Assembly: GCF_009695745.1 (NCBI RefSeq)
Contig: NZ_VUNH01000010.1
Coordinates: 1-64,000 of the forward strand
Length of the DNA stretch: 64,000 nt
Direction of reading: 5' to 3'
From: Pyramidobacter porci
GTDB lineage: Bacteria; Synergistota; Synergistia; Synergistales; Dethiosulfovibrionaceae
Shown: piece after piece, positions 38,579-44,322 of the stretch
Numbering within the stretch: the stretch's first letter is position 1
How the letters are laid out: each line of letters starts with the position of its first letter
Notes under the pieces: generated by a model
The model's input: only the letters and a program-made list of their open reading frames with translations
The model's database searches: none
What the model was told of the DNA's origin: nothing
Program-made: the position numbers and the translations under genes

Positions 38579-38607
38579 TTGACAACGGCGGCTCTTCGTG
38601 CTATAAA
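38579..38607 (+). promoter_or_regulatory. Predicted promoter of the Trp-leader operon
   Basis: A consensus TTGACA (38579-38584) and TATAAA (38602-38607) with a 17-nt spacer, 45 nt before the leader-peptide ATG. Confidence 0.82.
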
Positions 38608-38651
38608 ATGCGCCAAGCAATTCCCAATCTTTTGCAAAGGCGTGAACTTTC

Positions 38652-38765
38652 ATGATCTCGGCAACCATCCATATCCATAACAGTTTTGACAACGGCATGT
38701 GGTGGCGCAGCGTGGGGACTCTCTTCGACGAGGACCGACGCGCTGTCGTGCTGCGGTCTGAATAA
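38652..38765 (+). CDS. Putative tryptophan attenuation leader peptide (37 aa)
   Basis: A 37-codon frame beginning MISATIHIHNS with tandem Trp codons at residues 17-18 (38700-38705) in the context GMWWRS, close to the KGWWRTS of the E. coli trpL peptide. AAAGGCG lies about ten bases upstream. It is bounded by a strong promoter and a strong terminator. Fifteen bases after the Trp codons, CTCTTCG (38721-38727) can pair with CGAAGAG (38779-38785), which overlaps the 5' arm of the terminator. Stalling at scarce Trp would therefore favour read-through into the transporter gene at 38982. Function is inferred from this layout; no homology search was possible. Confidence 0.65.
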   Translation: MISATIHIHNSFDNGMWWRSVGTLFDEDRRAVVLRSE

Positions 38766-38780
38766 ATCCGTCCGGATACG

Positions 38781-38819
38781 AAGAGCCGGTTCCCATTCAT
38801 GCGGGAACCGGCTCTTTTT
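38781..38819 (+). terminator. Attenuator terminator of the Trp-leader operon
   Basis: AGAGCCGGTTCCC (38782-38794) pairs perfectly with GGGAACCGGCTCT (38803-38815), followed by TTTTT. Its first bases are shared with the candidate antiterminator pairing segment CGAAGAG. The next gene begins 163 bp further on. Confidence 0.88.
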
Positions 38820-38981
38820 CGTTTATCTTCCGTTCGGCGTCTGGAAAGGGGGAATGTCCATGGAGCCCCGGTTGGCGGCTCAAACAAGACGAACATCGCA
38901 GCGTGCGGAATTCGGCGGCCGTCGTCGGCCGGACTTCACGGATCCTCGCGGGATCCCGTTCATCTCAGGGAGGTTTTTGTC

Positions 38982-40151
38982 ATGCAGTTCACTCAGCTTC
39001 AGTCGATTCTCGTCGTTCTCGGCTTCTTCACCGTCGGCGATCTGATCGCCTCGCGCACCCGGGCGCTCGTTTCCATGCGCTTCGTCTCCTCGGGCATGAT
39101 TCTCGCCGCTTTCTGGCTGGGGATGCCCGCGGACTTGTTCAAGACCACGGGGCTGATGAGTCTGGCGATGACGTTCATTCCCGTGCTGATGGTGCACATG
39201 GGCACGATGATCGACGGCCGGGCCATGCTGGCGCAGTACCGCACCGTGCTGATCGCGCTGGCGACCATGTGCGCCGCTTCGGCCGCCGTGATTCTGATCG
39301 GAAGTCCGCTGATCGGCATGAACTTCGCCCTCACCGCCACCGGTCCCATTTCCGGCGGTAACGTGGCCATGCTGATCATGAGCGAAGCCGCCCAGGCCAA
39401 AGGGCTGAACGACATCCTTGTGTTCATCACGATGCTCTTGATTCTGCAGGGTTTCATCGGCGTGCCCATCGCCAGTCTCTGCCTGCGCCGCGAAGCGCGC
39501 CGCCTCAAGGCCGCCTTCGCCGCCGGCGGGCAGGCTGCGGAAACCGAAGCTGAAAAGAGCGAGCGCAGAAAGCCGATCCCCGCGCTGCCCAAAAAACTGC
39601 GCACGCCGTTCGTGCTGCTGTGCAAGAGCTTTCTCGTCGCCGCCCTGGCCGTCGCCGCCGCGCAGGCGACCGGCAACCGCGTCCATCCCTTCGTGATGGC
39701 GCTCGTCTTCGGCGTCGCCTCCTACGAGCTGGGCTTTCTCGAAGGGCGCATCCTCGACATCGCCGCCTCCAGCGGCCTCTCCATGTTCATCATGCTTCTG
39801 CCCACGTACGTCAACCTCAGCAGGGCCACGCCGCAGATGGTGCTGTCGCTCTTCTACCCGATCGCCGTGTCCTTCGCCGCCGCCGTGATCGGCCTGGTTG
39901 CCTCGGCGTACCTGATCAGCCGCTTCGCGAAAAGCTCGTTCGACATGACGCTGGCCATCGGCGCCTGCTGCCTGATCGGCTTCCCCGGCACCTACATCGT
40001 CGCCGACGAAGTGTCGCGCAGCTTCGGCGACACGCCCGCGGAAAAGGAGTTCATCGAAAGCCGCATCATGCCGCAGATGCTCGTTTCCGGCTTCACGACC
40101 GTTACAATAGCTTCGGTGTTCCTGGCCGGCTTTCTGGTCAACTTCATGTGA
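38982..40151 (+). CDS. Polytopic membrane protein, putative transporter
   Basis: A 389-residue protein with about ten hydrophobic segments and a short charged cytoplasmic loop around residues 175-205 (LRREARRLKAAF...EAEKSERRKP). Two halves show similar glycine-rich segments (TATGPISGGNVAMLIMSEA near 120 and GACCLIGFPGTYIVADEVSRSFG near 328), suggesting an inverted-repeat secondary carrier somewhat like glutamate:Na+ symporters, but I do not recognise the family. The ATG at 38982 follows CAGGGAGG by 8 nt. It lies behind the Trp-codon attenuator and 24 bp ahead of an M20 hydrolase gene, so uptake of tryptophan or a tryptophan conjugate is a hypothesis. Confidence 0.75.
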   Translation: MQFTQLQSILVVLGFFTVGDLIASRTRALVSMRFVSSGMILAAFWLGMPADLFKTTGLMSLAMTFIPVLMVHMGTMIDGRAMLAQYRTVLIALATMCAASAAVILIGSPLIGMNFALTATGPISGGNVAMLIMSEAAQAKGLNDILVFITMLLILQGFIGVPIASLCLRREARRLKAAFAAGGQAAETEAEKSERRKPIPALPKKLRTPFVLLCKSFLVAALAVAAAQATGNRVHPFVMALVFGVASYELGFLEGRILDIAASSGLSMFIMLLPTYVNLSRATPQMVLSLFYPIAVSFAAAVIGLVASAYLISRFAKSSFDMTLAIGACCLIGFPGTYIVADEVSRSFGDTPAEKEFIESRIMPQMLVSGFTTVTIASVFLAGFLVNFM

Positions 40152-40175: not shown

Positions 40176-41378
40176 ATGGACAAAACGAAGATCCTCGCGC
40201 TGGCCGCTCAGGCCGAAGACGAAATGACCGCGCTCCGTCACGAGCTTCATCGTCACCCCGAATTGGGCTGGCAGGAAGTGCGCACCACCGACGCGATCGA
40301 ACGCGAGCTGAGAAAGATCGGCTGCGCCATCCTCCGCCGCGGCTTCGCCGGCACGCGCTGCGGCATCGTCTGCGACGTCAATCCCGACTCGCCCGGCCCC
40401 TGCGTGGCCGTTCGCGCCGATATCGACGCGCTGGCCGTGGCGCGCGAGGACAACGATCTGGAATACGCCTCCGCCGCCCCCGGCGTCATGCACGCCTGCG
40501 GACACGACGCCCACGCCGCTTCGCTGCTGGGCGCGGCCAAGATCTTCAAGGCGCTCGAAAAAGAGCTGCCCGGCCGCGTGCGCCTCATGTTCCAGCCCTC
40601 GGAAGAGCAGGCCACCGCGCCCGGCGCCAAAGCCCTCATCGAAGAGGGCATGCTCGACGGCGTCGACGCCGTCATCGGCTATCACGTGCGCGCCGGCGCG
40701 CCCGAAGGCGAAATCCAGTTCACGCCCGGGGCCGCCACCACTTCCGGCGACATCTGGGAACTCGACGTCGTCGGCAAAGGGGGCCACGGCAGCCGCCCGC
40801 AGGACGCCGTCGATCCCACCGTCGCCGCCGCGCAGATCATCTGCGCCCTGCAGACCGTCGTCAGCCGCGAGATCCCGCCCGGCGAGCGCGTCGTCATCAG
40901 CATCGGTACGCTCAAAAGCGGCAGCGCCGTCAACGTCATCCCCGAAAAGTGCGAGATCACCGGCAACATCCGCACCACCAACCCCGATATCCGCGCCACG
41001 CTGCCCGAACGCATCGAGCGCATCGCCCAGGGCGTCGGCCTGGCCATGCGCTGCCGCACCGACTTCCGTTTCATCCCCGTCTATCCCAGCGTCGTCAACG
41101 ACGAAGCCATGGGGCTGCTGCTCGAAGAGGCGGCCGGAGAACTGTTCGGCGCCGAAAAAGTGAAGCGCGTCCCCATCTCCTCCGGCTCCGACGATTTCAA
41201 CTTTTACTCCGCCGAACGCCCGTCCATTTATTTCAACGTCGGCATGGGCGGCCTCGGCACGCCCTACGCCGCCGCCCACCACTCGCCCCAGTTCCGCACC
41301 AACGACGCCATCCTCAAAACCTGCGCCGCCGCCGTCGTCGCCACGGCGTGCAAATTTTTGGAAGCGAAAACGAAATAA
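40176..41378 (+). CDS. M20D family amidohydrolase (IAA-amino acid hydrolase / aminoacylase type)
   Basis: A 400-residue cytoplasmic metallohydrolase. HELHRHPELGWQEVRTTD, VMHACGHDAHAASLLGA and MFQPSEEQATAPGAKALIEEG are the M20D ligand motifs, and a dimerisation domain is inserted near 185-300 (GKGGHGSRPQDAVDPTVAAAQI). Such enzymes cleave amide bonds in N-acyl or indole-acyl amino acids and dipeptides. It starts 24 bp after the membrane protein gene, with AAAGGGAG upstream, and shares its attenuated promoter, so the two likely take up and hydrolyse the same compound. Confidence 0.88.
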   Translation: MDKTKILALAAQAEDEMTALRHELHRHPELGWQEVRTTDAIERELRKIGCAILRRGFAGTRCGIVCDVNPDSPGPCVAVRADIDALAVAREDNDLEYASAAPGVMHACGHDAHAASLLGAAKIFKALEKELPGRVRLMFQPSEEQATAPGAKALIEEGMLDGVDAVIGYHVRAGAPEGEIQFTPGAATTSGDIWELDVVGKGGHGSRPQDAVDPTVAAAQIICALQTVVSREIPPGERVVISIGTLKSGSAVNVIPEKCEITGNIRTTNPDIRATLPERIERIAQGVGLAMRCRTDFRFIPVYPSVVNDEAMGLLLEEAAGELFGAEKVKRVPISSGSDDFNFYSAERPSIYFNVGMGGLGTPYAAAHHSPQFRTNDAILKTCAAAVVATACKFLEAKTK

Positions 41379-43134: not shown

Positions 43135-44322
43135 TCAGCACGCCCTGTTCGGCAGGGCGTTCCGCTCGAAATCGGCCTTCATCGCGGCGCGCAGATCCGG
43201 CGACTGGAACACGTCGAGGCCGGTCATGGACAGCCCCTTGGCGGCCAGCAGCACCACCTCGTCGGCGCGGCGAGACACGGCGGCTTCGCGCAGCTCGGGC
43301 GTGTGGCCGCCGACGCCAGGCGCGTGCAGCGACAAATAGGGATGAATCGACGGCGTGCGCACCGACACGTTGCCGATGTCCGACGAGCCGCTCATGCGGT
43401 CGGGCTCGGGCCATGACATGGGCTCGCCCAGCTCTTCCATGTTGGCCTTGAAGGCCTCGTCCAGCGGCCGGTTCGGATAGCGCTCGGAGCAGAAAGGCGT
43501 ATGGGCGATCTTCAGCTCCGCTCCGGTCATGGCCGCAGCGGCCCGCGCCAGACGCTCGAGATCGGCGTACATCGGCCTGAGCTGATTCAGCTTTTCGGCG
43601 CGCATGGAAAACGCGCAGGCGCTGAACTCGGGGATGATATTCGGGGCCGTGCCGCCGGCGGTGACGATGCCGTTGATTTTGCTCTTGTTGGGCCAGAGGT
43701 GGAGCTGAGCGTTGACGGCCGCAAACAGGTGCAGCGTCGAAGTCAGCGCGTTGACGCCGAGAGCGGGGCGCGAGGAATGGGCCGACGTGCCGTGAAACTC
43801 GACGAACACGTCGGTGACGGCCAAGCTGCCGGCGCCGACGAGATTTTCGCTGGGATTGGGATGGAACATCATGGCGCAGTCGAGCCCGTCGAACGCCCCG
43901 GCATCGGCCATGGCGATCTTGCCGCCGCTCGTCTCCTCGGCCGGCGTGCCGAAGAGGACGACCGCGCCCTCCCGGCCTTCCAGCGTTTCGGCCAGCGCGA
44001 TGGCCGCGCCGCAGGACGCCGCGCAGATCATGTTGTGTCCGCAGGCGTGGCCAAGGCCGTTGAGCGCGTCGTATTCGGACAGAAAGCCGATCTGCGGCCC
44101 TTTGCCCAACGTGCCCTTAACGGCGCGGTACGCCGTGTCGAGCCCGCAGCAGGGATTTTCGACGACGAAGCCGTATTTTTCCAGCAGCGTCTTCTGCCAG
44201 GCCACGGCCTGGCGCTCCTGCATGCCCAGCTCGGGATGAGCGTGCACCTCGTGGCTCAGCGCGATCAGCTCGGGCGCAAGACGTTCCACCGCAGCGGCAA
44301 TTTTCTGCTTCGGATCCATCAT
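43135..44322 (-). CDS. M20 family amidohydrolase
   Basis: A 395-residue metallohydrolase of the AbgA/PM20D2-like branch. HEVHAHPELGMQERQ, LGHACGHNMICAASCGAAIAL and LFGTPAEETSGGKIAMADAG hold the metal ligands; GTSAHSSRPALGVNALTS begins the dimerisation domain, and GSSDIGNVSVRTPSIHPYLSL is near the C-terminus. AAGGAGG is upstream; the ATG at 44319 is equally plausible. It is monocistronic. The substrate is probably an N-acyl amino acid or dipeptide; it cannot be told from sequence. Confidence 0.86.
   Translation of the reverse strand: MMDPKQKIAAAVERLAPELIALSHEVHAHPELGMQERQAVAWQKTLLEKYGFVVENPCCGLDTAYRAVKGTLGKGPQIGFLSEYDALNGLGHACGHNMICAASCGAAIALAETLEGREGAVVLFGTPAEETSGGKIAMADAGAFDGLDCAMMFHPNPSENLVGAGSLAVTDVFVEFHGTSAHSSRPALGVNALTSTLHLFAAVNAQLHLWPNKSKINGIVTAGGTAPNIIPEFSACAFSMRAEKLNQLRPMYADLERLARAAAAMTGAELKIAHTPFCSERYPNRPLDEAFKANMEELGEPMSWPEPDRMSGSSDIGNVSVRTPSIHPYLSLHAPGVGGHTPELREAAVSRRADEVVLLAAKGLSMTGLDVFQSPDLRAAMKADFERNALPNRAC

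Follow-up and report, generated by a model that had tools for sequence, protein, structure and literature searches.

The leader of a two-gene operon in Pyramidobacter porci is very probably a trp-type ribosome-mediated transcription attenuator that would raise transcription of the operon at Trp shortage. The operon lies in the 64,000-nt stretch of DNA analysed here (contig NZ_VUNH01000010.1, positions 1 to 64,000; hereafter the window) and encodes a polytopic membrane protein, TR, and an M20 amidohydrolase; judged from sequence, induction by Trp shortage is its most likely mode of regulation. The attenuator architecture, its conservation, its covariation, and the match between sensor codons and downstream genes are established by sequence comparison. 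Furthermore, the leader appears to belong to a single Synergistota attenuator family, wherein one and the same core occurs with sensors for Trp, Phe/Tyr, Phe/Trp/Tyr, Ile/Val/Leu, Ile, or Met.

Architecture of the Window Leader

An earlier note on this DNA had described a TTGACA-17-TATAAA promoter, a 37-codon leader with tandem Trp codons, and a perfect terminator with a T5 tract whose 5′ arm overlaps the second of two complementary segments (CTCTTCG, 38721-38727, and CGAAGAG, 38779-38785). All of these are present as described, and the pairing between the two segments is longer than had been claimed. The features of the leader and operon are as follows.

38579..38607, + strand: sigma-70-type promoter read from the sequence, TTGACA (38579-38584) and TATAAA (38602-38607) with 17-nt spacing
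38652..38765, + strand: leader ORF, ATG at 38652, 37 codons followed by TAA, peptide MISATIHIHNSFDNGMWWRSVGTLFDEDRRAVVLRSE
38700..38705, + strand: tandem Trp codons TGG TGG, the putative sensor, conserved in 5/5 Pyramidobacter genomes with the TR-M20 operon
38710..38741, + strand: protector hairpin masking segment 2, GCGT (38710-38713) paired with ACGC (38738-38741) plus inner pairs, from the RNAalifold consensus
38714..38727, + strand: segment 2, the 5′ strand of the antiterminator, GGGGACTCTCTTCG
38779..38794, + strand: segment 3, the 3′ strand of the antiterminator and 5′ arm of the terminator
38780..38819, + strand: intrinsic terminator (segments 3:4) with T5, -29.4 kcal/mol alone
38982..40151, + strand: TR, polytopic membrane protein of 389 aa, predicted CitS-like elevator transporter, ORF intact
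40176..41378, + strand: M20 amidohydrolase (TIGR01891), partner of TR across Synergistota, ORF intact

The terminator has a perfect, GC-rich core of 13 bp, or 15 bp with an A-U extension (38780-38794 / 38803-38817), enclosing a loop at 38795-38802 and ending in T5 at 38815-38819, about 160 nt before the transporter gene. In the antiterminator, GGGGACT-CTCTTCG (38714-38727) pairs with CGAAGAG-(CC)-GGTTCCC (38779-38794) over 14 bp, and thus the entire 5′ arm of the terminator is used in it. None of 200 dinucleotide shuffles folds as stably as the leader and terminator together (z -4.65). The leader ORF is presumably translated. Its sensor consists of two Trp codons only, which counts against reading it as an attenuator.

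Conservation among Close Relatives

Four other Pyramidobacter genomes (G116, G117, G118, G119) also have the leader, its WW codons, the antiterminator, and the terminator in front of this operon, which argues that the arrangement is not due to chance. The leader peptide is 97% identical in G116 and two codons shorter in G117 and G118. In G119, the most diverged of the four (its transporter is 81% identical to that of the window), the peptide reads MTSSRIQKNMWWRSAGPLFDGDTRRFALSA, in which MWWRS is retained and most other residues differ. The pairing segments of G119 have changed on both sides, from CTCTTCG/CGAAGAG to CTCTTTGACG/CGTCAAAGAG and from GGGGAC/GTTCCC to GGGACC/GGTCCC. The promoter elements are the same, with 17-nt spacing, in G118 and read TTGACG/TATAAG in G119. 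A search of the phylum with the leader peptide gave confident matches in Pyramidobacter only.

The proposal of a classical Trp-codon attenuator on an operon without trp genes is supported by the relatives, as the tandem Trp codons are kept in the five Pyramidobacter genomes and both helices covary: the pairing segments in G119, and the protector and terminator family-wide. A second small ORF begins with ATG at 38860 downstream of the terminator (within 38860-38980) and has a AAAGGGGG site; its counterpart is MEPEWWFSNARLW in G119 and MEPGWRLKQ in G116 and G118, and relative to G116 the window copy carries a frameshift.

A Proposed Kinetic Switch

The window operon would respond to Trp through three states of its leader. 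With ample Trp, a ribosome would pass both Trp codons and reach the stop codon, keeping segments 2 and 3 apart so that the terminator forms. With no ribosome on the leader, the protector hairpin would hide segment 2, and the terminator would form too. When charged tRNA-Trp is scarce, a ribosome stalled on TGG TGG would cover the GCGT of the protector, which lies 5-8 nt downstream of the Trp codons, and would free GGGGACTCTCTTCG. The freed segment 2 could then pair with segment 3 as it emerges, pre-empting the terminator and allowing transcription of the operon.

Simulated folds reproduce these states. The free leader folds into protector plus terminator. When RNA up to 38713 is blocked and RNA polymerase has only just passed segment 3, the minimum-energy structure is the antiterminator (-35.4 kcal/mol). 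A ribosome placed at the stop codon lies between segment 2 and segment 3, and the terminator is then formed. The completed terminator is the more stable structure in every state folded, so the switch must be kinetic, its outcome being settled during the passage of RNA polymerase from segment 3 to segment 4. A general model of the race between ribosome and RNA polymerase in attenuation has been described (PMC1183508). In most TR leaders the stop codon is at most about 7 nt from the paired segment, unlike in the window, where it lies about 30-33 nt beyond segment 2, and in its Pyramidobacter relatives (about 30 nt). Because the stop codon lies farther past segment 2 than in most members, it is less clear in the window that a ribosome there would block the pairing of segments 2 and 3.

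An Attenuator Family in the Synergistota

A covariance model (R1) built from ten TR leaders, starting 3′ of the sensor codons, matched many additional loci across the phylum. A second model (R2), built from 56 members and again leaving out the sensor codons, gave matches at E<0.001 in 119/188 Synergistota genomes vs six of about 204 genomes outside, where the best E was 1.2e-5 (E-values being rough). Six low-scoring matches (L174, L176, L177, L182, L184, L187) are excluded from the membership, as each is a terminator that lacks a proper leader. Most TR leaders follow one core plan, GCGTGGGACC..CC..GG..CCGACG, then the stop codon, segment 3, and the terminator. The aromatic, branched-chain (BCAA), and Met types have in common the core sequence, the leader tail (VGPP..ADA / GSPPGA.GA), a hairpin around the stop codon, and the spacing, and common descent of the family is the reading that we infer. 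None of the Rfam 15 covariance models matched the window at gathering score, and at a relaxed E-value nothing relevant appeared in the window leader or in ten family loci. T-box elements and known Rfam leaders were rejected as candidates, given no T-box or other relevant Rfam match in the window.

Among the 56 members, 93.7% of cells in the protector and terminator are paired vs 80.1% when shuffled, double changes occur in 19/23 pairs (no shuffle was as high, and slid structures were far lower), and the covariation score is 0.50 vs 0.23; these counts lean towards the two helices, since the alignment had been made to fit the terminator/protector structure. With the same leaning, double changes are found in 13/14 modelled pairs of the terminator, and one protector pair is U-A in 30 members and C-G in 16. 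The antiterminator lies outside the model. In all of the members examined (62/62), segments 2 and 3 are able to pair as an antiterminator (mean 15 bp, mean z -2.9), and an A-U/U-A swap in segment 2 tracks segment 3 (Fisher p 3.3e-5, which is not a strict probability for related sequences).

Hairpins arise readily in GC-rich sequence, and shuffling is a weak control for the pairing of segments 2 and 3 in single leaders, as both segments are GC-rich and some shuffled segments pair well too. One could regard the leader as a mere terminator with a spurious ORF, the WW codons and the complementary segments having arisen by chance. This is hardly credible and was rejected, since it is contradicted by the comparative data, namely conservation, compensatory change, and a phylum-wide family with matching sensors. 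A different question is whether the common core in different operons reflects convergence rather than duplication and spread of one ancestral attenuator. Attenuators can arise repeatedly, and the TR leaders of G181 and G187 (CFYYWQ) escape the model and look independent; however, core, leader tail, stop hairpin, and spacing are common to the aromatic, BCAA, and Met types, and the members are nearly confined to one phylum, leaving convergence improbable. Duplication and spread of one ancestral attenuator is the reading adopted below.

Sensor Codons and Downstream Genes

The residues immediately 5′ of the core agree with the downstream gene for 60/61 genes of known amino acid, whereas permuting the labels 20,000 times gave a mean of 34 and a maximum of 48. 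The single mismatch (L245) is an over-long start choice, and its run reads AIIIANAAPP. Representative gene names were compared with NCBIfam, and L155, L160, L161/L183/L224/L251, L164/L167, and L172/L173, whose downstream genes are ambiguous, were left out of the count. Downstream genes are listed below with the run that precedes them.

ilvN-ilvC-leuA-leuC: Ile/Val/Leu, 32 loci
Threonine dehydratase or a PorC/KorC-type gamma subunit: Ile, 10 loci
metNIQ or O-acetylhomoserine sulfhydrylase: Met, 18 loci
PaaK-like ligases: aromatic, 22 loci
SSS symporter: aromatic, 5 loci
YkvI-like permease: aromatic, about 4 loci
TR-M20: aromatic

Individual loci agree with this pattern: FFFSFFF is followed by an operon with, among its genes, an EPSP-synthase-like one (L247, by eye), MTMT by aspartate kinase (L242), and a WWWW reading frame by trpB (L185, by eye, with a weak model match). 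This agreement makes the sensor codons informative about genes without known function.

Some loci deserve separate mention. PaaK-like arylacetate-CoA ligases stand under aromatic attenuators at L128-L153, L230, L257, and others, with a trpB-like gene downstream at L146, L152, and L153; these loci hint at supply of aromatic amino acids from aryl acids. IIIII leaders precede the gamma subunit of a 2-oxoacid:acceptor oxidoreductase at five loci (L223, L226, L227, L239, L256). Ile/Val/Leu leaders are found about 330-400 nt 5′ of an ORF of ~975 aa (L161, L183, L224, L251), and BCAA-type leaders before a PAS-like gene (by eye) or no recognisable gene (L164, L167, L172, L173). In the window genome, two weak model matches lie in tandem before a YkvI-like permease (G000:C7:25138-25545; L261, L262), where the leader MSLLHRNNALVLSLTTADL suggests a putative Leu/Val sensor.

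TR-M20 Operons in the Phylum

The TR family is present in 60/188 Synergistota genomes, usually with an adjacent M20 gene, and many TR operons have an aromatic-codon leader ORF 5′ of a terminator (FFFGFWY, FFFFAFWY, FFSFFFAYWY, FCGSFYFWYG, CFYYWQ, FFYYWQ). The window genome has a second TR-M20 operon (G000:C6:43193-44544; L058, L100), whose Phe/Tyr leader FYFSFYYG has the best model score in that genome. The TR family is not bound to one amino acid, because aromatic codons occur together with Ile codons in the TR leaders of G121 and G122, and the leader of a distant TR paralogue in G186 contains Met. This last case is consistent with a transporter and a hydrolase that are adapted, as a pair, to conjugates of various amino acids. 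TR-M20 operons of family f3 (six genomes, G011-G016, about 50% identical) have no attenuator, a point against the proposed explanation, and the model has no match in these six genomes. In G181 and G187 (L016, L018), the FFYYWQ/CFYYWQ leaders carry two tandem terminators and do not match the family model; they are possibly an independent attenuator.

The Transporter, Its Partner, and Their Substrate

TR has no Pfam or NCBIfam match, and no 2-hydroxycarboxylate transporter Pfam entry matches TR or 25 relatives. Its AlphaFold2 model (pLDDT 83.9) has CitS as the closest structure by Foldseek (E 7.6e-6, TM 0.63). TR thus resembles in predicted fold the Na+/citrate symporter CitS of the 2-hydroxycarboxylate transporter family, and differs from it in having about 15% identity and no Pfam match. 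The M20 enzyme matches TIGR01891 with 338 bits (cut-off 153.75) as well as the Peptidase_M20 and M20_dimer domains, and is similar to YxeP, plant IAA-amino acid hydrolases, and an N-acyl-glutamine aminoacylase. Another, different TIGR01891 amidohydrolase is encoded in the window at 43135-44322 on the - strand.

The window genome is likely a Trp auxotroph, because IGPS (trpC) is absent and no trpB scores above cut-off in a search that detected 13-14 of 14 controls. A prephenate dehydratase is present. The earlier suggestion that the operon takes up and hydrolyses Trp or an N-acyl/indole conjugate is plausible from sequence, and the substrate proposal is better motivated since sensor codons predict the amino acid of downstream genes in the RNA family. 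In a tentative version, held with slightly less than even confidence, TR-M20 may import a Trp compound that has both an amide bond and a free carboxylate, for example N-acyl-tryptophan. TR, as a predicted sodium-driven CitS-fold carrier, would bring the anionic Trp amide in, and M20 would cleave the conjugate to release Trp; import direction and substrate are both presumed here.

Two other substrates would leave the attenuator standing. Import of dipeptides or free Trp by TR, with M20 as a dipeptidase or carboxypeptidase, seems fairly unlikely: M20 scores well against carboxypeptidase CpsA, yet below its cut-off, and aromatic-sensor leaders precede ordinary transporters too (SSS, YkvI-like), but a free-Trp importer would not need a co-conserved hydrolase, and CitS-type carriers normally take carboxylates, not peptides, which weighs against dipeptides. 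Alternatively, the operon could handle an aryl or indole acid conjugate (e.g., indole-3-acetyl-amino acid or phenylacetylglutamine), with the aryl acid converted to the aromatic amino acid through arylacetyl-CoA and a 2-oxoacid:ferredoxin oxidoreductase, a route reported for some methanogens. The resemblance of M20 to IAA-amino acid hydrolases speaks for such a conjugate, as do the aromatic-sensor members before PaaK-like arylacetate-CoA ligases (TIGR02155 match below cut-off) and the Ile-sensor members before a PorC/KorC-type oxidoreductase gamma subunit. However, TIGR01891, which M20 matches, is a broad subfamily, and this alternative is judged unlikely.

Relation to Known Systems

The mechanism itself is known ribosome-mediated attenuation. 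Trp attenuators include E. coli trpL and predicted examples in Corynebacterium and Streptomyces (PMC1262725), and the window element shares with the trpL type a leader ORF with tandem UGG and mutually exclusive protector, antiterminator, and terminator pairings. Unlike the trpL type, it controls a transporter and an M20 hydrolase, has its stop codon beyond segment 2, lacks an Rfam leader match, and has a core that is reused with other sensor codons. The Corynebacterium glutamicum ilvBNC attenuator has a similar three-hairpin logic and BCAA sensors like the ilv members here, whereas it belongs to another phylum (PMC11857589). A 2010 survey knew leader-peptide attenuators only in Proteobacteria and Actinobacteria before its added Firmicutes case (PMC2965389). 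The Firmicutes His leader attenuators likewise place leader-peptide attenuation outside those two phyla; unlike the Synergistota family, they serve histidine only (PMC9413887, PMC2965389). For Synergistetes, the repressor HisR was reported, not an attenuator (PMC9413887). A literature search, with subscription journals largely outside it, found no description of such Synergistota attenuators; an earlier description is possible.

The family also resembles T-box riboswitches, in which one RNA architecture serves many amino acids via a small changed specifier. T-boxes sense tRNA directly and have no leader peptide, whereas the Synergistota family is leader-peptide based.

Implications

Sensor codons predict function for unannotated genes, tying the orphan TR, which has no Pfam entry, and M20 to tryptophan, and the TR paralogue in the window genome to phenylalanine/tyrosine. 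The operons of PaaK-like ligases and 2-oxoacid oxidoreductases under family leaders suggest that these enzymes serve amino-acid supply in Synergistota. Taken across genomes, amino-acid supply in the phylum is probably regulated genome-wide through one ancestral attenuator, copies of which came to stand before many operons and were retuned by swaps of their sensor codons. Leader-peptide attenuators are usually described one operon at a time. If true, a phylum-wide family with exchangeable sensors would show how such switches spread, would be a ribosome-reading counterpart of the T-box, and would make sensor codons a guide to the class of substrate that orphan transporters and hydrolases handle, TR-M20 among them.
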